Source: Calothrix sp. NIES-4105 (lineage in GTDB: Bacteria > Cyanobacteriota > Cyanobacteriia > Cyanobacteriales > Nostocaceae). Taken from it: DNA of 64,000 bases. Below the pieces are notes generated by a model. The model was given only the letters and a program-made list of their open reading frames with translations, did not search any database and was not told the origin of the DNA. The DNA lies in NCBI RefSeq assembly GCF_002368415.1, contig NZ_AP018290.1, positions 8,547,717 to 8,611,716 of the forward strand, in the 5' to 3' direction. Positions 1-13,396 of this stretch are shown here, piece after piece (within the stretch, counting starts at the first letter, position 1; each line of letters starts with the position of its first letter). The translations under genes were made by a program, and so were the position numbers.

Positions 1-987
1 GCCATCAGTTTCGAGAAGTTCGCCCAATTCAGTATCTTTGTCTTTGCCAACTTTGGTTTCGAGAGATACTGAACGAGGTACGCGCAGTAATACTTCTCTA
101 ACTTGTGTTGGTGACATTTCGAGTTCAATTGCCAAATCTTCTAAAGTCGGTGTGCGACCTTTTTCTTGAGCAATTTTACGCTGTGCTTTTTTAATCTTGT
201 TGAGTTTTTCTGTGATGTGGACAGGGAGGCGAATAGTGCGACTGCTTGTAGCAATTGCACGAGTGATACCCTGACGAATCCACCAGTAAGCATAAGTGCT
301 AAAGCGGTACCCTTTAGTTGGGTCAAACTTTTCGACCGCGCGCTCTAAACCTAAAGTACCTTCTTGAACTAAATCTAATAGTTCTAAGCCACGATTTTGA
401 TACTTCTTAGCAACGGACACAACAAGACGGAGATTCGCCTTAATCATGTGTTCTTTAGATTGAAGTCCTTGGCTTTGAATTTGTTCTAACTCTTCGACAG
501 TCAACTTAGCAACTTCTGCCCAGCGACGTTTACCCTTAGCAAGAAGTTGCTTGAGTTCAAAAACATCCATATCACCTGTTTTTGCCCAGCGTTCGAGCGA
601 AGGACGATGCCCCAACTCGGAAGTTAAACGCTCTTGAATTTCAATAATGCGTGAGTAGGAAGCGATAATATCATCACCCTGCTTGGCAGAATTGGCTAGC
701 AAAATACGTAACCGTAGGTAGCGTTGAACTTTCTGAGCTTCTGAAACTTCTTCATCACGTCCCAACAAACGAACCCGTCCAATTTCCTGAAGATACAAGC
801 GTACCAGGTCAGTGCTACGACGGTTGGGGGTTGTAGCAAAGCTGGCTGGGTCTTGCGATACCATTTCCAGCTCTTCCAAATCCTCTACAGATAACTCACT
901 TTCATCAACTCCGAGGTCTGGGTCAAATGTTTGGTTAGGTTGTTGGGCTTCTTCTGCATCTGCGGCGTAAAAAGATGTTGCTGGCAT
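1..987 (-). CDS. sigC: Group 2 RNA polymerase sigma factor, SigC-like (partial, C-terminus beyond left edge)
   Basis: Primary-type sigma factor that directs core RNA polymerase to promoters. The ATG is at 987 and the frame stays open to base 1, giving 329 residues and missing region 4. Visible: acidic N-terminus, region 1.2 (STDLVRLYLQEIGRV, about residues 58-72), core-binding region 2.1-2.2 (ANLRLVVSVAKKYQNRG, about 184-200, and LLDLVQEGTLGLERA), -10 recognition region 2.4 (FSTYAYWWIRQ, 229-239) and region 3 (LPVHITEKLNKIKKAQR). A roughly 60-residue insertion between regions 1.2 and 2.1, and the start MPATSFYA, resemble SigC-type group 2 factors of heterocystous cyanobacteria. That subgroup assignment is from memory and less certain than the family. 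Confidence 0.88.
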   Translation of the reverse strand, partial: MPATSFYAADAEEAQQPNQTFDPDLGVDESELSVEDLEELEMVSQDPASFATTPNRRSTDLVRLYLQEIGRVRLLGRDEEVSEAQKVQRYLRLRILLANSAKQGDDIIASYSRIIEIQERLTSELGHRPSLERWAKTGDMDVFELKQLLAKGKRRWAEVAKLTVEELEQIQSQGLQSKEHMIKANLRLVVSVAKKYQNRGLELLDLVQEGTLGLERAVEKFDPTKGYRFSTYAYWWIRQGITRAIATSSRTIRLPVHITEKLNKIKKAQRKIAQEKGRTPTLEDLAIELEMSPTQVREVLLRVPRSVSLETKVGKDKDTELGELLETDG

Positions 988-1863
988 AAGGTTCGTCTCA
1001 ATGGCTCCAGGTAACAATAGATTGTGGTGGGCAGTACGCCAACTTAGAGGTTATCTTTAATAAGCGGCTGCAAACCCTGCACGGTTGTAGCATTGCGGTC
1101 AGCATAATCAACTGTTGATATCATTCCCGCAATCTCACAGAAACTAACATCAAGTTGAAAGTTTTTTTTGAATTTATTTCTTGAGTTAAAGCCATTTTAG
1201 TATTTATATATACTTAATAAGCTAAGTATAGGACGTGATTACAACTCAAGAGCGAGATTAATCATGAGTAAAAACTGATTGATATTAAGGGTTGCAGTCT
1301 TTATAATTATTATTCATTAAATAAATATTTACTGTAGCTTTTTTGACGTACTATAATCATAAATTAAGTAGAAGTAAGGGAAAATATTTTTTGTTACGTG
1401 TGATGGTTTTTGTGTGATGGTTATGTATACAGGAATCTTTTTATAATTTCCTGAAGGTTTTAGTATGCTTTGGATTGATTTTGCGTTAAGTATTGTTCGC
1501 GTTGTTTTAAGGATCGCTTCTAACCCCTGATATTTGACCTGACTTTTCACGTTATGTGTCCAAGCATAGAAAAAACCTAACCCCCCAACCCCCTTCCCTA
1601 CTAGGGAATGGGGAGTACAATTGCTCCCCTCTCCTTGTAGGAGCTACCGTGTACACATAAGTTTTTGAAAGTTAATTTTCTTCCCTTTCTTCTCTTTCTT
1701 TGTGTCCGAGCGTGTCTTTGTGGTTCCTTAAAAACATAAACCACAAAGGTCACAAAGGGCACAAAGGAGGGAATATAAGAAGGGTTATAAAGATGTGTGT
1801 ACACCGTAGCCTTGTAGGAGAGGGGTCGGGGGAGAGGTTTTCAACATGCAAATGAATTTTTGT
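988..1863. other. Long intergenic region between sigma factor and gpsA
   Basis: About 880 bases without a convincing gene. The part next to the sigma factor is AT-rich and presumably carries its promoter and leader. The part next to gpsA holds a C-rich dispersed repeat (about 1575-1640 and 1810-1845) that is split by a MITE-like element at 1644-1809. Short open frames here (for example 1329-1550) lack ribosome-binding sites and coding character. Confidence 0.6.
1644..1809. mobile_element. MITE-like 166-bp element with terminal inverted repeats and 11-bp target duplication
   Basis: The ends are CTACCGTGTACACA (left) and TGTGTACACCGTAG (right), inverted repeats matching at 13 of 14 positions. 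The 11-mer CCTTGTAGGAG flanks both sides (1633-1643 and 1810-1820), as expected for a target-site duplication inside an older C-rich repeat. The interior has runs of the type CACAAAGG and an internal stem (CTTTGTGGTT / AACCACAAAG). A second copy in the opposite orientation lies at 51564-51734. No transposase is encoded, so mobilisation in trans is inferred. Confidence 0.75.
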
Positions 1864-2838
1864 TTATTCGTAGTATTCAGGCTTGATGTGACGTAGCATT
1901 AATTCTTCTAAAGCTTGGCGGGGTGTGGAGTCAGATTTGAGGACGCGGTAAACTTGTTCGGTGATAGGCATTGAGATATTTTGCCCAGAAGCGCGCGTTA
2001 TTAATACTGAACAGGTGTTTACTCCCTCTACAGTTCCTTGTAAGTGGGCAAGAATTTCAGGAAGTGTTCTACCACAAGCTAGCTGATAACCAACTTGGTA
2101 ATTTCGGCTAAGAGAACTGTTACAAGTTGCGAGTAAGTCACCTAATCCTGACAAACCATAGAATGTTTCAGTTTTGGCGCCTAAACTTACACCAATGCGA
2201 ACCATTTCGGTAAGACCGCGCGTGACTAAAGCAGCTTTGGCATTAGTTCCTAATTGCAAACCATCACAGACACCTGCTGCGATAGCGATAACATTTTTTA
2301 GAGTTCCCCCTAGTTCGACGCCTAAAGGGTCAAGATTTGTATAAACTCGAAACCGTGGTGAGGAGAAAACGAGTTGTACAGACTCTGCCGCAGTTGCCGA
2401 ATAACTTGCTACTACTGTTGCAGCAGGTAAGCCTAATTCTATTTCTTTAGATAAATTTGGGCCAGATAACACCACAACCGGATGCTTCGGAAATGCTGCT
2501 TGCAAAATTTGCGACGGTGTACAAGTAGTTTGAGTATCTAAACCTTTAGTGGCAGTTACGAAAATAGCTTTATCTCTTAGCTTTATTTTTTGAAGTTGCG
2601 CGATGACTTCAGGCACACCTTTCATAGATATGGCACTAACAATGATATCCGCATTTTCAACGGCAGGCGCCAGTTCTAATTCACCACGACGCGACCAAAT
2701 GCGTACTTGATGACCGTTTGGTGATACTAAGGAAGCTAGACTAGTTCCCCAGGCGCCGGCGCCGAGGATGGTTACTGATTTTGGATTACCCTGTGGAAAG
2801 TCAAAAGGAATATGGGTTTTGGATTTTAGATTAGTCAA
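1864..2838 (-). CDS. gpsA: Glycerol-3-phosphate dehydrogenase [NAD(P)+]
   Basis: Cytosolic enzyme that reduces dihydroxyacetone phosphate to sn-glycerol-3-phosphate, the backbone of membrane glycerolipids. The protein has 324 residues. A Rossmann nucleotide-binding loop GAGAWG is at residues 26-31, the family motif LSGPNLSKE at 124-132, and the substrate/catalytic lysine segment GTLKNVIAIAAG at about 178-189. The segment after WSRR is shorter than in E. coli GpsA, which appears normal for cyanobacterial forms. It lies upstream of and codirectional with nothing overlapping; lipA follows it on the same strand about 110 bases away across a palindromic repeat. Confidence 0.95.
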   Translation of the reverse strand: MTNLKSKTHIPFDFPQGNPKSVTILGAGAWGTSLASLVSPNGHQVRIWSRRGELELAPAVENADIIVSAISMKGVPEVIAQLQKIKLRDKAIFVTATKGLDTQTTCTPSQILQAAFPKHPVVVLSGPNLSKEIELGLPAATVVASYSATAAESVQLVFSSPRFRVYTNLDPLGVELGGTLKNVIAIAAGVCDGLQLGTNAKAALVTRGLTEMVRIGVSLGAKTETFYGLSGLGDLLATCNSSLSRNYQVGYQLACGRTLPEILAHLQGTVEGVNTCSVLITRASGQNISMPITEQVYRVLKSDSTPRQALEELMLRHIKPEYYE

Positions 2839-2871
2839 TTTTGCGGGTTGCGATGGTTCAAAATTATATAA

Positions 2872-2929
2872 GGGCGGGTTTAGTTAGATTTTAAATTCAA
2901 TTTTAAGATATCTGTTAACCCGCCCGTAC
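2872..2929. repeat. GGGCGGGTT palindromic repeat, copy 1
   Basis: GGGCGGGTT and AACCCGCCCGTAC flank about 40 AT-rich bases, so the transcript can form a GC-rich stem with a long loop. It sits between lipA and gpsA and could stop readthrough. Related copies are at 3880-3936 and 26140-26197. The arms are conserved while the loop differs. Confidence 0.7.
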
Positions 2930-2949
2930 AGTAGTCGCGTAATTCAAAA

Positions 2950-3822
2950 TTATTTACGTGGGTAGCGCTGCATTAATTCCCGAACTTGTTCTGCATGGTA
3001 GGAGCTTCTGGTCAAGGGTGATGATACAACTTGTAAAAAACCGATTTTTTCACCGAAAGCTTGCCAAGCATCAAATTGTTCGGGGCGAACAAAATCGCTA
3101 ACCTGTAGATGTTTCTGGCTAGGCTGTAGATATTGTCCGATGGTCAATATATCACAATCAACCGCGCGCAAATCTTGCATAACTTGACGAATTTCTTCGT
3201 CGGTTTCTCCAAGTCCAACCATAATGCCAGATTTTGTGTAAACCCAAGGTGCAATTTCACGACTGCGTTTGAGTAGCTCTAAGGTACGCTCGTAATTAGC
3301 TTGTGGACGCACTCGACGATACAAGCGGGGGATAGTTTCTGTATTATGGTTGAGAACTTCAGGTTGGGAAAGGAGAATTATTTCTAGCGCTTTCCAGTTT
3401 CCACACAAATCAGGAATTAATAATTCTATAGTTGTATGCGGTGATACAGCACGAATATTTTCAATACATTCTACAAACTGAGAGGCACCTCCATCAGGTA
3501 AATCATCGCGGTTAACAGAAGTAATTACTACATGGTTAAGCTTCATGCGTCGTACTGCTTCAGCCAACCGTGTTGGTTCAGTAGGGTCGAGAGGTTTGGG
3601 TTTTTTCTCAAAGTCGATATCACAATAAGGACAAGCGCGCGTGCAAGCAGGACCCATAATTAGAAACGTCGCGGTTCCTGCATTAAAGCATTCCCCAATA
3701 TTCGGACACGACGCTTCCTCACATACTGTATTTAAAGCTAAATCCCGTAATATTTCCTTAACACTACCGACACGCTCCCATTGAGGCGCCTTTACCCGCA
3801 ACCAATCTGGTTTTACAGCCAC
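2950..3822 (-). CDS. lipA: Lipoyl synthase
   Basis: Radical SAM enzyme that inserts two sulfur atoms into protein-bound octanoyl groups to make the lipoyl cofactor of 2-oxoacid dehydrogenases and the glycine cleavage system. The protein has 290 residues. The auxiliary Fe-S cluster cysteines are C34, C39 and C45 (CX4CX5C) and the radical SAM cluster cysteines are C60, C64 and C67 (CX3CX2C). The C-terminal RSSYHAEQ motif, which ligates the auxiliary cluster, is present. Cyanobacteria often carry more than one lipA, so this may be one of two paralogues. Confidence 0.95.
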
Positions 3823-3879
3823 AATCTACTTTTACCCATTTATATAGATATACAAAGTTAATCGTAGCAAGTTGTGCAA

Positions 3880-3936
3880 GGGCGGGTTTACTATATGCTG
3901 GCAAATAATCGGAAATTTGGGTGAACCCGCCCGTAC
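3880..3936. repeat. GGGCGGGTT palindromic repeat, copy 2
   Basis: Same arms as at 2872-2929 (GGGCGGGTTT and GAACCCGCCCGTAC) around a different AT-rich centre, upstream of lipA. Probably a dispersed hairpin element. Confidence 0.7.
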
Positions 3937-4048
3937 AGGTGGCATGGAGTTGGGGATTAGCAAAAATAAATGATTTAATTTTGTGGGGTAGGCATCCTGC
4001 CTGCCCATAACATGTGATATACTGCATTGTAGGCTAGTAATACTATGC

Positions 4049-4122
<74 letters not shown>

Positions 4123-4351
4123 TAATTTTTATTGATGATAAATCGTTTTACTGATCATAAAAATAATCTTGGTTAAAATGCAGTTATTTAGAAGTTTAGT
4201 TTGAAAGTTCTTTATTTAGATACTTTATGCTGATATTTTTTTAGATTGCTTTGCACTTATATTTATTATCTTTGCAAATTCGTCATAGCAAAGGACATTG
4301 AGAATTATAACAGTTCTGATTTTCAGCTATTTTATTACTTATTATACGAAA

Positions 4352-5158
4352 ATGAGTCTAGAAGACTACTTAGTACCTAAAGAAAATATCGAAGCTTATA
4401 ACTACTTATTCATGATTGAAACAGGGCTTCGAGAGCTAATTATAGAAGAGTTACAGAGAGTAGAGATAAAATGGTATAAAACTCGTTTACCTGAAGATAT
4501 TAAAAAAAAGTATATAGACGGTAAAAAAGCAGAAAATAATATTAAGTGGAGCAAATTAATTCTGCATCATCCTATTTACTATGTTGATTTTCCTGACCTT
4601 AAAAAGGTTATAGAAAGTAATACCAACTGGAAGGGTGTTTTTGATACTATTTTTGGAAGAAAAGAGATTTTAAGTGCTACTTTATCAGAAATAGAATATG
4701 TACGCAACAAAGTGGCTCATAACCGAAAAGTAATCAGAGCAGATGTTGATATCGTAAAAGGAGCTTATACGAAAATTTCAAATGCTGTAGGCGAAGGCAG
4801 ATTTAAAAGTCTAGCATCAAAATGTACCTTAGCTGACGATATTACTTCTCAATTAGTCGCTCTAAAATTAGATGCTAATAATTTTTTTGTCCTCATCAAT
4901 AATTATAAAATTATAGACAATATAAAGATATGGGCATGTATTTGTGATAGTTGGTGGTTTGATTTTGAATATCTCAATCATAGTATAGACGCAATCAAAG
5001 AATTCTTTAAATTAGTAGAGCAGTACATGGAACTACCTAGAGTTCGAGGAAGTGGTCATAAAATAGAGTCATGGGTTAAGTCGAATAATGTAAGCGAAAA
5101 ATATAATCATGCTATTGATGAAATTATGATTATTATATCTGAAAAAGGAGAATTTTAA
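4352..5158 (+). CDS. Swt1-type HEPN-domain protein
   Basis: 268 residues from the ATG at 4352. An in-frame TTG at 4298 would add 18 hydrophobic residues, but its only Shine-Dalgarno-like bases are too close. Residues about 15-130 match the Swt1-like HEPN fold: MIETGLRELI, a region ending in a conserved aspartate-rich turn (YYVDFPDLKKVIE), TNWKGVFDTIF, and VRNKVAHNR with the HEPN RX4H signature at R118-H123. HEPN proteins with this motif are often metal-independent RNases used in toxin or defence modules. The stop codon abuts the GTG of the NTPase gene at 5159, so they are probably co-translated. The gene is AT-rich and is not preceded by a recognisable operon partner. Family assignment is by motif; RNase activity is inferred. 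Confidence 0.75.
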   Translation: MSLEDYLVPKENIEAYNYLFMIETGLRELIIEELQRVEIKWYKTRLPEDIKKKYIDGKKAENNIKWSKLILHHPIYYVDFPDLKKVIESNTNWKGVFDTIFGRKEILSATLSEIEYVRNKVAHNRKVIRADVDIVKGAYTKISNAVGEGRFKSLASKCTLADDITSQLVALKLDANNFFVLINNYKIIDNIKIWACICDSWWFDFEYLNHSIDAIKEFFKLVEQYMELPRVRGSGHKIESWVKSNNVSEKYNHAIDEIMIIISEKGEF

Positions 5159-7387
5159 GTGTTAGAAATAAATCAAGTTCACAATCCATACGATTTTTCA
5201 AACCCAGTATCAAAGTTAGAACTTTTTGCTGGCAGAAAAACAGAGTTAGAAGATATAATTTATTATTTAAATCATGCAGTAAAAGCTCCTAAGCCAATTA
5301 ATATTGCGCTACTTGGCAAAAGAGCTTCTGGCAAAACTAGTTTTCTCAATATTATTAATGAAGAAGCAAAAAAATTAGGTTTCTGTGCTGTAAGAGTAGA
5401 TTTAGATGAGGGAGACACTCAAACTCAATTACAATTTTTTAGTAAATTATTTAACTCTATTCTGTTAGAAGCTTGTGAACTAGGTGCTTTTGCTGGGATA
5501 CATGGTAAAACCTATGAAACTCATCAAGACATTATGTTTACATATACTATTCCAGATGATAAGACTTTTTCTCCTTTTTTGTTTCCTCTTCAGTATGCTA
5601 GGGCTATGAATGGCGGTAATCATAATATCCAAATAGATGACAATGTTTTTAAGAGAGATTTGATTACGATTCAAACTGAGCTTGATAAGCCGATAATTGT
5701 TCTCTTTGACGAATGCAATGTACTTTCCAATAGTAGAGTAATTTTAGAAAAAATCAGAAACATATTTATGAATATTTGTGGTTATATGCTTGTTTTTACT
5801 GGTACTCCTGAACTTTTTCCAATTATCGATGATATATTTTCTCCAATAATACGCCAATTTAAAAAAATTAACATTGTTGATTTCAAGAAAATAAATGATA
5901 CTCATGACTGTATCTTAAAACCATTGAAAGAAGTAGGAATTGATATTGAACACGTTTTGGATTTAGAAACAAACGAAGATATTCAAGAAATTCATGACTT
6001 GTCTGGAGGGCGTCCTTATGAGATTCAACTAATATGTCACATAATGTTTCGGCGCCTTCAAAACAAACGTGCGAAAAAAATGAAGTTAGATTTAAGCATC
6101 CTAGAAGATGTTCGTCGAGAGCTTGAAACTTCACAGACTTTATCAAATCGTCCTATTTTATCAAAAATACTCAATCTTACTCATACTGAACTTTCTGCTT
6201 TAAAAATTTTCTCAATAGGTAATGGCAAAGTTACATTTGAGCAAGCATGGGCAATAGAATATATATTTAATGAAAATACTAACTGGACAAAAGATATCTT
6301 ACAAGAATTACTTAATAAATTTATTCGAGAGCAGATTTTTACAATTGAAGGAGATATAATCAAGTTTTCTGGTGATGATTTTGATAAGATTTATACAAAA
6401 TATTATGCTCGTGAACAAAGCATACCTCTTAGCTTTCTTGATTTTCCAATAGACGTAATTTTTGTGATACATGCATTATCTAAATTTAGAATTACAGACT
6501 TAGATAATATAACAATAATTAGCACAAATTCAAGTGTTGAAGAATCTGATATTTACAATTTAACTCAACAATTAGCTAGCGACGATTTAAAGTATGACGT
6601 ATTCGTAGAGAGTCCTCACATGGTTAAGGATTTATATTTTTTAATGGTTGAACATCGAAAAAATGATAAATTACAACTATTAAATATAAGGTTTATTCTT
6701 CCTTGGTTAACTATTCAATTGTGGTTAGGAAGCAAAGAAAACTCTTGTGAAACTATTATAAATTCTTTTCCTTTTTCTATCGAACAAATGAAAGAAAGAA
6801 TTTCTATTATATCAGGAGAGCTTATATTAAAAACACATGATTTAGCAGTTGCTCCGGTAAACTCTTTAATTAAAAAATTGGTTTCTACTGCTAATGAGGA
6901 AGTTAAGAAATCAATAGCTTATCAACATTTTCGTAATGCCTATGATATATATGTTAGTAGTAAAAATTTTGAAGAGGTTGCTTTTCACATTAATCTCGCA
7001 TTTGCAATAAGCACAGAAATTGAAGATTGGATGGTAAACGCTTGTTATCTACTTATAGTTACCGAAGATTATATGCCAGAAAATGTTAGTACTGCAAAAT
7101 CTGTTTTAGAGCAACTTGCGACTTCGGATATATTAAAGGAAAATCAACCTCTTATCAACTATAATTTAGGCATACTGTATCTTAAAGAAGATAACCCTGA
7201 ACAAGCATTAAATAAATTCGACTCATGTATTGAGTATTTAAAAAATTCAGAATCACCATATCCTTGTTCTCATTTACTAATTGTTGATGTACAGGACGAT
7301 AAACTTGTGATTAGAGAACAAGAAAATGTTAATCTTTTCGATATCGCACGCACATCAAAATTGGTTTTAGAAGCTTTTTTGAAATAG
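5159..7387 (+). CDS. P-loop NTPase (AAA/STAND-like) with TPR-like C-terminus
   Basis: 742 residues with a GTG start directly after the HEPN stop codon. The N-terminal FAGR box leads into Walker A GKRASGKT (53-60), Walker B IIVLFDECN (about 179-187), a sensor-1-like strand LVFTGTPELF (211-220) and a GGRP motif (283-286), as seen in ORC/Cdc6-type and STAND ATPases. A winged-helix-like stretch follows. The last 300 residues are helical, with a TPR-like segment near 690-715 (NYNLGILYLKEDNPEQALNKF is shown only in part here). Codon use is AT-rich and only one GGCGCC lies in the whole 4.3-8.1 kb stretch. The pairing suggests that the NTPase senses a trigger and controls the HEPN effector. This is inference. 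Confidence 0.8.
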   Translation: MLEINQVHNPYDFSNPVSKLELFAGRKTELEDIIYYLNHAVKAPKPINIALLGKRASGKTSFLNIINEEAKKLGFCAVRVDLDEGDTQTQLQFFSKLFNSILLEACELGAFAGIHGKTYETHQDIMFTYTIPDDKTFSPFLFPLQYARAMNGGNHNIQIDDNVFKRDLITIQTELDKPIIVLFDECNVLSNSRVILEKIRNIFMNICGYMLVFTGTPELFPIIDDIFSPIIRQFKKINIVDFKKINDTHDCILKPLKEVGIDIEHVLDLETNEDIQEIHDLSGGRPYEIQLICHIMFRRLQNKRAKKMKLDLSILEDVRRELETSQTLSNRPILSKILNLTHTELSALKIFSIGNGKVTFEQAWAIEYIFNENTNWTKDILQELLNKFIREQIFTIEGDIIKFSGDDFDKIYTKYYAREQSIPLSFLDFPIDVIFVIHALSKFRITDLDNITIISTNSSVEESDIYNLTQQLASDDLKYDVFVESPHMVKDLYFLMVEHRKNDKLQLLNIRFILPWLTIQLWLGSKENSCETIINSFPFSIEQMKERISIISGELILKTHDLAVAPVNSLIKKLVSTANEEVKKSIAYQHFRNAYDIYVSSKNFEEVAFHINLAFAISTEIEDWMVNACYLLIVTEDYMPENVSTAKSVLEQLATSDILKENQPLINYNLGILYLKEDNPEQALNKFDSCIEYLKNSESPYPCSHLLIVDVQDDKLVIREQENVNLFDIARTSKLVLEAFLK

Positions 7388-7439
7388 TTTCGGTATGATT
7401 CGCTATTCAACCTTCTAATGCTACCTAAAAAAGTTTAAA

Positions 7440-7471
7440 GCAGTAAGCTACACTTTACTCTTGCTTACTGC
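7440..7471. terminator. Perfect 9-bp hairpin, possible bidirectional terminator
   Basis: GCAGTAAGC at 7440-7448 pairs with GCTTACTGC at 7463-7471 around a 14-base loop, between the converging NTPase gene and the small gene at 7549-7692. There is no clear U-run, so termination is a guess. Confidence 0.45.
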
Positions 7472-7548
7472 CTAGATAAAATCTTAAGCCTTTTGAAACT
7501 TTACGATATGTTTCTAAAAGCCATACTTAACTGATACGTACTACTTCG

Positions 7549-7692
7549 CTAAGCTTTTTCACCTGAATTAGAACTATCCTGGCAATCAACTTCATGATTT
7601 GAGCGTGACAAGTTTATTACTTGAAAATATTGATTTGACTGCTCTTTTACTCTTTTGGAGCCAATAGAGTATAACCCAAGTTTCTTTAACAT
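7549..7692 (-). CDS. Small protein of 47 residues, unrecognised
   Basis: ATG at 7692 (minus strand), preceded by GAGGT seven bases upstream, a good Shine-Dalgarno at ideal spacing and rare in this window. The product starts MLKKLGLYSIGSKRVKE and ends in a Ser/Asp/Glu-rich tail (DCQDSSNSGEKA) with one cysteine. It has a basic N-terminal half and an acidic tail, and no membrane segment. It converges with the HEPN/NTPase pair and may belong to the same cassette (antitoxin, peptide or regulator). I do not recognise the family. It may also be a chance frame. Confidence 0.5.
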   Translation of the reverse strand: MLKKLGLYSIGSKRVKEQSNQYFQVINLSRSNHEVDCQDSSNSGEKA

Positions 7693-8145
7693 TTTATTAC
7701 CTCGGAATATATAATGACTTTATCCGTTACCAGATAAATGTAACGATTCTAACCTAATCAAAATAGAACTTTGTTTTTTCCAGCACTCAGGCTACATTAT
7801 AGCATACACTAGCTGCTTTTTTGGCCGCTATAGTATGTAGATACAGTTTCACAAAGCTCTTTCCGGATATATTAACTCTATTTTAGCTTTTTAAAATCTA
7901 AAATCAAGTCTTTTTAATCTGTTCACCTAATTGGCAATAATGAAGGAGATATGTTAGTGTTAGTATTAATATCAGTTGTAAGTGTTCAAATTCTTGAAAG
8001 CAAGGTCTTATACTTTGGCCTGCAAAACAAATGTATATTTAAGTACATTAGTATTTAGCGTGAAAAGCACATAATCTAAATTTGGTATTATCAAATCTAT
8101 GCTTAATGTTTCAAAAATAGAGTCCTTGAATTGATTTTATCAAAT

Positions 8146-11100
8146 TTACTTGGTTTCCATCCAGTTTTCGCCCGCGCGCGCTTCAACTAGTAGAGGTACA
8201 GTCAGTTTTACTGCGTTTTCCATGACTGATTTAATTTGAGGTTGTAGTTCTTCCCATTCGTTGGGTGGGACTTCAAATATCAGTTCGTCGTGGACTTGGA
8301 GGAGTACGCGCGCTTGGTAGTTTTGCAAGACTTCGTGCATTTTTACCATTGCGATTTTGATGATGTCGGCGCTTGAGCCTTGAATTGGGGCGTTTGCGGC
8401 TGAACGTAGTAACCCAGCGTCGAAGTTACCTAGGTTTTTGAGTTTGCTGAGGTCGATGTCTGAGGGTTTGCTATTTTTTAATTTACGTAGGCTTTCTGTT
8501 GTGAAGTCAAAGTAGCGGCGCCGACCGATGATTGTTTCGACATAACCTTTGCTAATTGCTTGTTTTTTGACTCCTTCTAAGTATTCAAATATTTTGGGGT
8601 AACGGGTGTAAAAGCGTTTGATGAATTCGTTTGCTAGGTTTTTGTCTACACCTGTGGAACGCGAAAACCTTAATGAACCCATCCCGTAGATGACACCGAA
8701 GTTGATTGTTTTTGCTACGCGACGTTCGTCTGATGTGACGTTTTCTTTCTCGAACATTAAGCGCGCGGTGACGGTGTGAATATCCTCGTTGTTTTTGTAT
8801 GCTTCTACCAGTATGGGTTCTTGGCACAAGTGCGCTAAAATTCGCAGTTCGATTTGCGAGTAATCTGCTGCTACCAGTAACCATCCAGATTCGGGTATGA
8901 AGGCTTTACGTATTTGACGACTGAATGCGGTACGTATGGGGATGTTTTGTAAGTTGGGATTTGATGATGATAGGCGCCCGGTTGATGTTGCTGTTTGGTT
9001 AAAGTTAGTGTGGATGCGATGTGTATCGGAACGTACTAGCAATGGTAGTGCATCTACATAAGTTGACTTTAATTTGGAAAGCGTTCTAAATTCGCTAATG
9101 GCTTCAATTATACCGGTTTCATCTACTTCGCGCAGCTTTTCTAATGTTGCTGCATCGGTTGAGTAGCCTGTTTGGATTTTACGCGAGTGCTTGGTGCTTA
9201 ATTTTAATTTGGTAAATAAAATTTCACTGAGCTTTTTGGGTGAACCTAAGTTAAATTTCTCACCAGCAATATCATAGACTTGCTGTTCATATTTGGCTAA
9301 ATCAACTTCTAACTGCTTGGAAAGTTCTTTTAAATAATCACTATTGATGCGGATACCTTGGTATTCCATCTCAGCTAAAACTGGTTCGAGTGGTTGCTCA
9401 ATATCTACAAGTAGCTTTGATAAATCTGGAATTTTATTAAGTTCTCCACGCAGTTTAGAAACGAGTTGGTATGTCGCATGTACTTGTGAGCAACAGTAGT
9501 CAGCTACACTTTTAATGTCTATATCAGCAATAGTTTTGGTTTTAGGAACCAAGTCTTGATAACTTGTCAGCGTTAATTTTAAATAGCGTTCGGTGATTTC
9601 GTTTAAACTGTGAGAGGTATCGGGGTTAATAATGTAACTTGCGAGCATTGGGTCGAATACAACCCCTGCTAAATTAACTCCCTGGCAGCGAAAAACTAAA
9701 CGGTCGAATTTAGCGTTTTGGAAAGTTTTGGGATATTTGTCACTTTCTAAAATTGGTTTTAATGCGTTGAGTGCTTTTTCTAAGTCTAAATTTTCACCTT
9801 GAGTATGATTTAGAGGTATGTAAGCAACTTCCGATGGTTGAGTTCCCCAGCAACAACCGATACCAACTAGTTTCGCATCGCGCGGTTCTAAGTCGCTTGT
9901 TTCAGTGTCCCAGGCTACGGGGGTTTCTACACTGGTATGTTTTTTAAGTATATTTATTAATTCTTCTAGCTGAGAGTCAGAGGTAATAATACGCGGTTGA
10001 ATTTCTGATTTTTCCTGCTGTTGAAATGCGTCAGTGTCTTCTGCACTCCAAAACCATAAATCGTAATCGCTACTAAATGTAGAAGCGCGCGAAGTGGAGG
10101 TGTCCGAAGTAGAGACATCGTTTGTGGAGACATCGTTTGTAGAGACATCGTTTGTAGAGACATCGTTTGTAGAGACATCGTTTGTAGAGACGCGATTAAT
10201 CGCGTCTCTACCAGAGGATTCGTTTTCTTTTAGGGGTGGTTCTTGTGTGGCGCCACCGAGACGTTCTTGAATTTGGTTGATTTTGCCTAGGAAGGATTTA
10301 AATTCGAGTTTTTCAAGAAGTGGTGTGAGGTTGTTTGTATCGAAACCTTGGAGTTTACAGTCTTCTAGATTTACGGATAATGGAACGTCTTGGACTATTG
10401 TGGCTAAATAGCGGGATTTTTCTGCGTCTTCTCTACCCGAAGAGAGTTTTTTCTGAGCGGCGCCTTTAATTTGCTCTAGAGAATTATAAATATTTTCAAG
10501 GGAACCGTATTTAGAAAGCAAATCAACAGCTGTCTTGTCACCGATTCCCTTAACTCCGGGTATATTATCTGATGTATCGCCGCAGAGGGCTTTATAGTCA
10601 ATAATTTGTGATGGTAACACACCGAGTTTCTGTTTGACTTCTTCTAATCCAAACTCGGTAGGGCCTGATGTGGAGGAACGTTGAAGCGCTTCTTTATTAA
10701 GATATAAAACTTTAATTTCTTTTTCAGGGTCAACTAGTTGAAATAAATCTCTGTCTCCTGTAAGAATCTTGACGCGATAACCTTGTTCTGAAGCTTTTTT
10801 AGCCAGAGTTCCAAGAACATCATCTGCCTCATAACCAGATGCAGTCAATATTTTTAAATTGAGCGCATCCAGTAACTCATGCAAATTCTTAAGGTCGGGG
10901 ACGAAATCTTCGGGTGTCCCTGGACGGTCAGCTTTGTAGGTATCATCCGCTTCGTGACGGAAAGTCGGTAAACCTAAATCAAATGCGACAGCTATATGCG
11001 AGGGTTGCCATGTTGCTATTACCTCTAGCAGGGACTTAAGAAAACCGAAGCATACGCTAGTAGGAATCCCCGACTTGGTTCGCAAACCCCCGTCGCGTCC

Positions 11101-11217
11101 TTTCGCGAAGGCAAAGTAGGAACGAAATGCGAGTGAGTGTCCATCAACGAGGATGAACGTGGGTTGCTCTGCGATAGATTGGGAAGCCAACTGGTTTGAT
11201 GTTTTAGTATCTGACAT
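8146..11217 (-). CDS. polA: DNA polymerase I
   Basis: 1023 residues with 5' nuclease, 3'-5' exonuclease and family A polymerase domains, used for Okazaki fragment processing and repair. Visible: N-terminal flap nuclease (TASGYEADDVLGTLA, LTGDRDLFQLV, CGDTSDNIPGVKGIG), exonuclease motif AWDTETSDL, and polymerase motifs DYSQIELRILAH, the O-helix KTINFGVIYGMG and LLQVHDELIFE. The linker between nuclease and exonuclease domains (residues about 335-370) is low-complexity, VSTND repeated, and is encoded by a tandem 15-base repeat fused to a dispersed palindrome at 10109-10211. The catalytic motifs are intact, so the enzyme should be active. No neighbour is obviously cotranscribed. Confidence 0.96.
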   Translation of the reverse strand: MSDTKTSNQLASQSIAEQPTFILVDGHSLAFRSYFAFAKGRDGGLRTKSGIPTSVCFGFLKSLLEVIATWQPSHIAVAFDLGLPTFRHEADDTYKADRPGTPEDFVPDLKNLHELLDALNLKILTASGYEADDVLGTLAKKASEQGYRVKILTGDRDLFQLVDPEKEIKVLYLNKEALQRSSTSGPTEFGLEEVKQKLGVLPSQIIDYKALCGDTSDNIPGVKGIGDKTAVDLLSKYGSLENIYNSLEQIKGAAQKKLSSGREDAEKSRYLATIVQDVPLSVNLEDCKLQGFDTNNLTPLLEKLEFKSFLGKINQIQERLGGATQEPPLKENESSGRDAINRVSTNDVSTNDVSTNDVSTNDVSTNDVSTSDTSTSRASTFSSDYDLWFWSAEDTDAFQQQEKSEIQPRIITSDSQLEELINILKKHTSVETPVAWDTETSDLEPRDAKLVGIGCCWGTQPSEVAYIPLNHTQGENLDLEKALNALKPILESDKYPKTFQNAKFDRLVFRCQGVNLAGVVFDPMLASYIINPDTSHSLNEITERYLKLTLTSYQDLVPKTKTIADIDIKSVADYCCSQVHATYQLVSKLRGELNKIPDLSKLLVDIEQPLEPVLAEMEYQGIRINSDYLKELSKQLEVDLAKYEQQVYDIAGEKFNLGSPKKLSEILFTKLKLSTKHSRKIQTGYSTDAATLEKLREVDETGIIEAISEFRTLSKLKSTYVDALPLLVRSDTHRIHTNFNQTATSTGRLSSSNPNLQNIPIRTAFSRQIRKAFIPESGWLLVAADYSQIELRILAHLCQEPILVEAYKNNEDIHTVTARLMFEKENVTSDERRVAKTINFGVIYGMGSLRFSRSTGVDKNLANEFIKRFYTRYPKIFEYLEGVKKQAISKGYVETIIGRRRYFDFTTESLRKLKNSKPSDIDLSKLKNLGNFDAGLLRSAANAPIQGSSADIIKIAMVKMHEVLQNYQARVLLQVHDELIFEVPPNEWEELQPQIKSVMENAVKLTVPLLVEARAGENWMETK
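10109..10211. repeat. 15-bp tandem repeat plus 28-bp palindrome inside polA
   Basis: Five copies of GTAGAGACATCGTTT (10109, 10124 with one change, 10139, 10154, 10169) run into a perfect 28-bp palindrome at 10184-10211 with arms GTAGAGAC / GTCTCTAC. Both are read in frame by polA. The palindrome belongs to a family seen elsewhere in intergenic DNA. Confidence 0.85.
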
Positions 11218-12583: not shown

Positions 12584-13396
12584 CTACATTTCAAACCAAG
12601 CAACGCTATTTAATTTTTCTTCTAACAATAATCTTAATATCTGTTGAGTAGCTACTATCAATCCAATATGCGTGCGGACAAGTTCAGGTTTCACTTTAAC
12701 TTCACTCCAAATACGAGTATGGCGCCAAAAACAGATCAAAGCTTGGCTCAAATTTAACGCTTTAGAATGCCAGTAAGCATCAGGACGATCAACACATACC
12801 AAATCATCTACTACTTCCACTAAGTTCGCAATTAAACGCTGTGACTCGTCCGAGTTGAAGCGAAGTTTACCTTGACTATCTAACCAAGAAATCTGTAGTG
12901 GCCGCTCAAATGATATCAACCCGGAGTGTAAAGCTATGAGCAGTAGAGAGCAGCAGCGCGCGTGGGCATATTGAATCGAAAATGAAGCAGTGTGGGAGTT
13001 CCGGAGTCTGGGAGTGTGAGAGTGTGGGAGTGTGGGAAAGCTGTGTTGCTCTACCAAACTTTGCAAAAAGACAGCTATAACACTGTCACCGACTTCGATA
13101 TGAATCAAACCCTCCACTGCCTTAAACATAAAATTCTCTTTACAATCACAAAAATGAGAGACTACTTGATTCGCAATGACTGAAGCGCTTGTCCCATATA
13201 CTTTTGCAAGTTTAAAAGCGATTTCGGAAATATACAAAACTTTACATATTTCTTTACTTTTGCGCGCGGCAATTTCTTCCAAAGCAAACGTTAATATTTT
13301 TTTTTCGCTAGTATAAATACTTAAAGCTTCTTGCAAATGACTGTTTATTAGCTGCTTAATTGCTGTGTATTTGCTAACTAGTATCATGGAATACAC
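12584..13396 (-). CDS. DALR anticodon-binding-domain-like protein
   Basis: 270 residues. The C-terminal half (RTHIGLIVATQQILRLLLEEKLNSVAWFEM at the end, cited only as a position: last 30 residues) resembles the all-helical DALR domain of arginyl-tRNA synthetase. The catalytic Rossmann core is absent, so it is not a synthetase. Similar stand-alone proteins occur in cyanobacteria with unknown role. A proline/histidine/serine-rich insertion at about residues 118-140 is encoded by GGAGTGTGG-type repeats (about 12988-13040), probably a repeat captured by the gene. The start ATG at 13396 is followed by another in-frame ATG three codons later. Confidence 0.6.
   Translation of the reverse strand: MYSMILVSKYTAIKQLINSHLQEALSIYTSEKKILTFALEEIAARKSKEICKVLYISEIAFKLAKVYGTSASVIANQVVSHFCDCKENFMFKAVEGLIHIEVGDSVIAVFLQSLVEQHSFPTLPHSHTPRLRNSHTASFSIQYAHARCCSLLLIALHSGLISFERPLQISWLDSQGKLRFNSDESQRLIANLVEVVDDLVCVDRPDAYWHSKALNLSQALICFWRHTRIWSEVKVKPELVRTHIGLIVATQQILRLLLEEKLNSVAWFEM

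Follow-up and report, generated by a model that had tools for sequence, protein, structure and literature searches.

HEPN RNases and STAND/ORC ATPases are recurrent parts of immune systems. In Avs systems, a STAND-type nucleoside triphosphatase (NTPase) carries C-terminal repeats as the proposed sensor, and an effector is fused at its N-terminus. TIR-STAND-TPR and similar proteins are described in parts of one report (PMC9122126). A passage of the 2013 HEPN survey describes a Swt1/Abi2 HEPN domain fused to a DUF499 AAA+ ATPase (PMC3710099), and sections of a 2026 BREX paper place such DUF499-HEPN fusions in BREX-related systems, suggest the HEPN domain as a suicide effector and assign BrxB to the STAND/ORC-Cdc6 family (PMC12839542). 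AbiF is regulated by RNA, according to a portion of another report (PMC12373285). Here, we describe a two-gene combination of these parts that has no PADLOC system: a HEPN_Swt1 gene followed by a separate gene for an ORC/Cdc6-STAND-like P-loop NTPase. The pair lies in a stretch of 64,000 nucleotides (positions 8,547,717 to 8,611,716 of NZ_AP018290.1, forward strand; hereafter, the window, in whose numbering all positions are given) of the 12.0-Mb genome of Calothrix sp. NIES-4105. Our best reading is that the two genes constitute an uncharacterised abortive-infection-type module.

A HEPN protein and a STAND/ORC-like NTPase

The two genes lie on the same strand (plus) between a tRNA-Pro (CGG) gene (4049..4122, plus strand; ARAGORN and Rfam) and polA (8146-11217, minus strand, named by translation). 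The HEPN gene (4352..5158) encodes 268 residues; its open reading frame (ORF) reaches back to a TTG at 4298, and the ATG at 4352, which is 229 bp past the end of the tRNA gene, agrees with the conserved start of the family. The TAA stop codon (5156-5158) is followed at the next base by the GTG start of the NTPase gene (5159..7387, plus strand), which encodes 742 residues. An AAGGAG at 5145..5150 on the plus strand, read directly within the end of the HEPN gene, is the likely ribosome-binding site of the NTPase gene, and from its position translational coupling of the two genes is predicted. The GC contents of the two genes are 30.4% and 29.9%, respectively. The initial annotation, made from the letters of the window alone, had described two AT-rich genes with abutting stop and start codons after a tRNA gene, and its coordinates and the low GC content proved correct.

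The first protein matches HEPN_Swt1 (PF18731) with 34.2 bits against a cut-off of 27.5 (E = 3.5e-8). When two homologue lists were combined (all 103 members of one and the best 120 of 189 in the other, giving 185 proteins), residues R118, N119, H123 and R125 were identical in 185 of 185. The RX4H motif (R118-N-K-V-A-H123, codons at 4703..4720, plus strand), which had been noticed from the translation, is therefore real, and the concern that its residues might vary among homologues is not borne out. Because the patterns used in our scans of genome contigs and viral contigs contained RNxxAHNR, the loci obtained from those scans are not independent evidence for the conservation of the motif. The predicted structure of the protein has a predicted local distance difference test (pLDDT) score of 93.2; Foldseek returned no PDB match at E ≤ 0.001, re-alignment with VIA placed AbiF, in a structure bound to noncoding RNA (ncRNA), and Csm6' as the top solved folds, and sequence profiles gave two weak matches in the PDB. 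Judged from its sequence, the first gene product is probably a HEPN endoribonuclease and a candidate toxin.

Might the HEPN protein act in another way? One alternative is that it is an RNA-binding adaptor that presents RNA to the NTPase, as eukaryotic Swt1 HEPN domains are proposed, in a part of the HEPN survey, to be inactive binders (Anantharaman 2013, PMC3710099); we regard this as very unlikely, given that the RNxxxH residues are fully conserved in the 185 homologues. A second alternative follows from the fold comparison: in AbiF-like fashion, an ncRNA antitoxin in the leader might control the HEPN protein, with the NTPase as an accessory. The ncRNA-bound AbiF structure and the untranslated leader of 229 nt past the tRNA gene speak for this idea. 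Against it, tRNA was the sole Rfam match at the gathering score, and up to E = 1 the region 3900-8200 yielded just one antisense-RNA match (minus strand, 4092-4224) with 36.5 bits against a gathering score of 59; no abiF RNA match was found beside the pair at the gathering score or up to E = 1 in the same region, although a diverged RNA may escape such a search. The folding z-score of the leader of the window locus is −0.26, and we consider this form of control quite improbable.

The hallmarks of STAND/ORC-Cdc6 ATPases are a GR motif before Walker A, the Walker A and B motifs and a GxP-type motif. All of these are present in the second protein: in the best 120 of its 358 homologues, to which all the following NTPase counts refer, G25 and R26 of the GR motif, G53, G58, K59, T60 and S61 of the Walker A region (G53-K-R-A-S-G-K-T-S61, 5315..5341, plus strand), E185 of Walker B and P286 are invariant (120/120 each), and the class-defining set of G25, R26, G58, K59, T60, E185 and P286 is thus complete. 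In the Walker B motif, which ends in D184-E185 (5696..5713, plus strand), D184 is found in 119 of the 120. The GGRP motif (residues 283-286, 6005..6016, plus strand) is less rigid, with G284 in 109 and R285 in 108. The AAA plus winged-helix fold of the class was also found, and in the comparison of folds the top match of the NTPase model was ORC/Cdc6, with a likeness to ORC/Cdc6-STAND ATPases. ORC1-type profiles of NCBIfam matched weakly, below the cut-off, and sequence profiles against the PDB returned mostly TPR matches, with a small number of weak ones of GTPase type.

The two halves of the NTPase differ in conservation: mean pairwise identity is 0.604 for residues 1-425 (7140 pairs) and 0.310 for residues 426-742 (6670 pairs; 6434..7384, plus strand). 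The variable half, a candidate sensor, is helical in the model and TPR-like; the TPR_2 match of the window protein is weak (E = 0.031, below the cut-off), and the TPR signal is clearer in some relatives (Pfam). The initial annotation had listed Walker A, Walker B and GGRP motifs and a TPR-like tail; the Walker motifs stand, whereas two residues of GGRP vary among homologues and the TPR match falls below the cut-off in the window protein itself. By its motifs and model, the second gene product resembles an ORC/Cdc6-STAND-like P-loop NTPase whose core is conserved and whose C-terminal half varies.

Co-inheritance and distribution of the pair

A scan of genome contigs yielded 12 HEPN loci. The match was near full length in four, from metagenome-assembled genomes (MAGs) of Archaeoglobaceae, Nostoc (sp. 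S13), Deltaproteobacteria and Dormiibacterota, and an NTPase gene was adjacent in all four (4/4), that of the Dormiibacterota locus comprising 79 residues before the contig end; in the other eight, the match was limited to the HEPN domain or less, and no NTPase match was found. The archaeal assignment rests on binning because the contig is just 3.5 kb in length. The two genes, which abut in the window, are 5 bp apart in the Archaeoglobaceae contig and 14 bp apart in locus L091, and they overlap by 8 bases in the deltaproteobacterial locus and by 4 or 19 bases, depending on the choice of start codon, in the Dormiibacterota locus.

The association was also evident in the homologue lists. For 53 of the 120 NTPases, the longest contig was exactly equal in length to that of a listed HEPN protein, a count that takes equal length as the same contig; 120 length-shift controls gave a chance expectation of 2.29 on average, with a maximum of 6. 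For contigs of at least 8 kb, 22 of 41 listed NTPases were matched in this way, compared with 0.03 by chance, and in the reverse direction 51 of the 185 listed HEPN proteins were matched to a listed NTPase. In 49 of the 53 matched pairs (four were omitted, the lengths 3432 and 4425 each being common to two NTPases), the distance matrices of the two proteins were correlated with r = 0.847 (Mantel test), a value reached in none of 2000 permutations, the best of which gave 0.318. From the length-matched pairs and the correlated distances, we deduced that the two genes move and evolve together; it had been conceivable that homologues would always occur singly or in housekeeping settings, and this is not the case. 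The pairing is not fully obligate: for 19 of the 41 NTPases on long contigs, the lists contain no HEPN partner, and the distant NTPase relatives L044-L046, L098 and L114 have none in the stretches examined (3.7 kb for L098 and 3.9 kb for L114). In L044, a Halobaculum plasmid (9968-18095), the distant NTPase relative is followed by a 1490-residue protein, which has a weak NACHT match below the cut-off, and by a Cdc6-lid ATPase; these neighbours are possibly an alternative set of partners.

Within the host family, a strong NTPase match was present in 2 of 217 genomes, and a strong HEPN match in the same two. When the ATPase core was used as the query, 24 of the 217 genomes matched at E ≤ 1e-3; just the window genome and G511, a genome of another genus, fell below 1e-10, the next value being 4.7e-8. 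Ten other family genomes had HEPN matches at E ≤ 1e-10, all of 83 bits or less, and none of the six genomes of the same genus carried either gene. In other phyla, core searches at E ≤ 1e-10 gave 2 of 294 genomes (the starting genome and a second that is just 28% identical), 1 of 195 (the starting genome) and 1 of 251 (26% identical; here the starting genome, whose gene is truncated where its contig stops, falls below the threshold). Plasmids yielded three distant matches among 72,556 records, and phages no match among 50,697 records; a scan of viral contigs gave no relative of the NTPase and three HEPN-domain loci (L099, L100 and L101). A tally across Cyanobacteriota with the whole NTPase (210 of 386 genomes) was discarded because, among the listed matches, all but that of the window lie within residues 494-739, in the C-terminal, TPR-like part. 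Judging from these searches, the pair is patchy and horizontally spread.

Such a distribution bears on the main rival explanation, in which the pair is a toxin-antitoxin-like addiction unit whose NTPase, as an antidote, would neutralise a constitutively toxic HEPN protein and thereby stabilise a mobile segment. The toxin-first, abutting gene order, the tight co-inheritance, the horizontal patchiness and the small, isolated cassette in the window would all suit such a unit. However, small antitoxins do not resemble an NTPase of 742 residues whose Walker motifs are invariant and whose TPR half varies, and the pair is rare on plasmids and has no match in the phage records searched. We therefore consider addiction unlikely, while according it more weight than any other alternative treated here.

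A variable slot between tRNA-Pro and polA

How did the pair come to lie beside the tRNA-Pro gene? The genes lipA and tRNA-Pro are adjacent not only in the window but in all seven genomes compared with it (six of the same genus and G511). Homology to these seven stops at 4123-4130, and it restarts at 8145-8146, the end of polA, in four of the six same-genus genomes. In these four, polA is reached 0.75 kb (L088), 1.1 kb (L086), 5.0 kb (L089) and 6.4 kb (L085) past tRNA-Pro; in L084, L087 and L090, polA lies outside the fetched stretch. In a domain scan of the slot genes of all but L087, a Schlafen AlbA_2 protein was found in the long slot of L089, and a Tn3 transposase with a pentapeptide protein in that of L085. 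Two slots that are not bounded by polA have further cargo downstream of tRNA-Pro. L084 encodes a HATPase_c_4 protein that resembles the C-terminal portion of the one in L089 and, at 501-4888, a metallophosphoesterase with a 1050-residue SMC-type ATPase (LmuB-like in PADLOC, E = 5e-37), a pair that may be SbcCD-like; L090, from G511, encodes TIR-domain and DUF4351 proteins at 1460-3051. No remnant of the HEPN or NTPase gene was found in the seven sister stretches. Because the lengths and cargo of the slot differ and the sisters hold no remnant of the pair, we conclude that the segment was inserted at a site that varies among genomes.

The inserted segment, as delimited by the homology ends of the compared genomes and by GC content, is 4131..8145, the tRNA gene being the left edge of the slot; the GC content of 4123-8145 is 29.8%, compared with 40.3% for the rest of the window. 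Apart from the pair, the segment contains one ORF of at least 80 residues (87 residues, antisense), and lipA and polA, so named by translation, form the flanks. The slot holds no ORF of integrase size; no repeat of the tRNA 3′ end was found at the right end of the segment, nor were convincing repeats or a terminator-like site found at the segment. The foreign origin proposed in the initial annotation is supported by the patchy distribution within the family, the slot comparison, the GC content and the absence of remnants in the sisters. Its own argument, a scarcity of GGCGCC, is right as a count (104 sites in the window, with a single one, at 6051, between 3785 and 8517), and one site or none occurs in 10 of 600 sliding 3.8-kb windows; however, low GC content largely predicts the deficit, which therefore counts for less than the comparison with empty sites.

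These observations also bear on a further alternative, in which the pair, without any role in conflict, would handle host RNA processing or host replication control through an ORC/Cdc6-like ATPase and an RNase. The top fold match of the NTPase is compatible with such a role, but a pair that is carried by 2 of 217 family genomes, is absent from all six same-genus genomes and sits in an AT-rich foreign segment, in a slot whose cargo varies among sisters, is a poor candidate for it, and we give this alternative little credence.

The neighbours of the pair elsewhere point to defence with differing force. In the deltaproteobacterial locus, L004, the evidence is strong: the pair adjoins a 1783-residue helicase whose best match is Druantia DruE (9.6e-95), and the neighbouring genes also encode DpdE (1.3e-195), a WYL regulator and a fragment resembling DrmMI. 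In L091, where the pair is flanked by clpB on one side and on the other by an HNH gene whose product matches PtuB weakly (1.4e-7), the evidence is weak; the slot of the window is suggestive through the cargo of its sisters. Of the other loci, that of the Archaeoglobaceae MAG is a contig of just 3.5 kb, and that of the Dormiibacterota MAG ends inside the NTPase gene. The defence-island setting envisaged in the initial annotation is accordingly clear at L004 and less certain at L091 and in the window.

Other features of the window were noted in passing. A short dispersed repeat upstream of lipA (3880-3940) has dozens of similar copies in the genome, most of them 82-92% identical. Within polA, a 15-bp tandem repeat of 5.5 copies (10109-10191) encodes VSTND repeats, and the PolA ORF has 1023 residues in the window and 992, 1010 and 1010 in three sisters. 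An 8-bp tandem repeat, AGTGTGGG, is present in approximately six copies at 12989-13037.

Proposed mechanism and comparison with known systems

We propose that the pair is a conflict module, probably anti-phage, in which the HEPN RNase is under the control of the STAND/ORC-like NTPase, which would respond to a trigger. What is observed directly is which domains the proteins have, that their catalytic-type residues do not vary, that the genes are paired and inherited together with a patchy distribution, and that they sit in a variable slot and, at one locus, in a defence island. In the proposed mechanism, the HEPN endoribonuclease would be kept inactive in uninfected cells. The fast-evolving C-terminal half of the NTPase would bind an infection-linked trigger, and this binding, together with ATP exchange, would change the NTPase, probably by oligomerisation. 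The changed NTPase would then activate or release a HEPN dimer, which would cut cellular RNA and so stop growth or phage production. The roles already assigned in the initial annotation, with HEPN as toxin and the NTPase as its trigger-sensing controller in phage defence, are predictions, as are the RNase activity, the contact between the two proteins, the nature of the trigger and the direction of control.

More tentatively, and with clearly less confidence than in a conflict role as such, we speculate that the pair might represent a new class of prokaryotic immune module. In it, an ORC/STAND-like NTPase, through a C-terminal sensor that diversifies quickly, would detect a structure of viral replication or of nucleic acid and turn on, in trans, a HEPN RNase made as a protein of its own. 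If true, the module would do with two proteins what STAND immune receptors do with one. The module spans 3 kb and has relatives in cyanobacteria, in deltaproteobacterial and Dormiibacterota MAGs and in a contig binned as Archaeoglobaceae; its compactness, the spread of its relatives and its invariant catalytic-type residues make it directly testable, and confirmation would reveal a way for a STAND-type sensor to control an RNase encoded in trans.

The initial annotation knew of no named system made up of precisely these two genes, and we likewise found none in PADLOC-DB 2.0.0 (2023) and no description in the open literature that we searched, although one may exist there or in papers outside it. 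The nearest candidate in PADLOC is PDC-M34, likewise a two-gene unit, which consists of M34A and a matching HEPN protein, M34B. The window HEPN protein matches the M34B profile PDLC04592 (E = 1.5e-19), and M34B profiles match 53 of 53 members of our HEPN set. However, the M34A profiles gave no match to either protein of the window at E ≤ 10, and the interval from tRNA-Pro to the HEPN ORF contains no plus-strand ORF of 80 residues or more. Clear PDC-M34 pairs are built differently: in L008 (1945-3158) and L010 (9177-10393), from Chthoniobacterales and Gammaproteobacteria MAGs, a protein of 213-214 residues matched by M34A profiles is encoded upstream of a HEPN protein of 191 residues, whereas here a 268-residue HEPN protein comes first and its partner is a 742-residue NTPase. 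We therefore rejected membership in PDC-M34.

The Avs/AVAST systems share with the pair a STAND-type NTPase with C-terminal repeats as the proposed sensor, but their effector is fused at the N-terminus; here, HEPN is a separate ORF and the P-loop lies at the N-terminus of the NTPase itself (residues 53-61), so that this assignment, too, was rejected. An AbiF/AbiD identity was not favoured: AbiF belongs to an RNA-regulated system and is not known to have an NTPase partner, and no abiF RNA was matched beside the present pair at the gathering score or up to E = 1 in 3900-8200, where a diverged RNA may have escaped the search. As for the BREX ATPases of the BrxD/BrxB type, the BrxD profile matches 22 of 49 members of the NTPase set at E ≤ 1 (best, 9.2e-6), but the similarity does not extend over the full length (13.5 bits, cut-off 350), and the window slot has no other gene of BREX size.

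In other cases, HEPN and ATPase domains share one protein. The DUF499 ATPase-HEPN fusions (Ava_2192; Type-1 BREX-related, or Hma) likewise unite a Swt1/Abi2 HEPN domain and a P-loop ATPase, and they too belong to a defence setting (PMC3710099, PMC12839542). Here, however, the two activities reside in separate proteins, the ATPase is of another family and the neighbours differ: no DUF499 match was found up to E = 10, nor any methylase or helicase among the ORFs of at least 80 residues in the window slot (4131-8145), and membership in the DUF499-HEPN, Hma or Type-1 BREX-related systems, which entails a DUF499 domain and a linked methylase and helicase, was rejected. Finally, a viral contig from IMG/VR (L099, 7937-10420) encodes a protein of 827 residues with an N-terminal P-loop NTPase and a C-terminal Swt1 HEPN domain bearing RNTIAHNR. 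The same two kinds of domain are thus joined there in a single protein, with HEPN at the C-terminus and an NTPase that is not detectably homologous to ours by BLAST, the one method used; this fusion is an independent link between NTPase and HEPN activities and possibly a one-protein version of the same idea.

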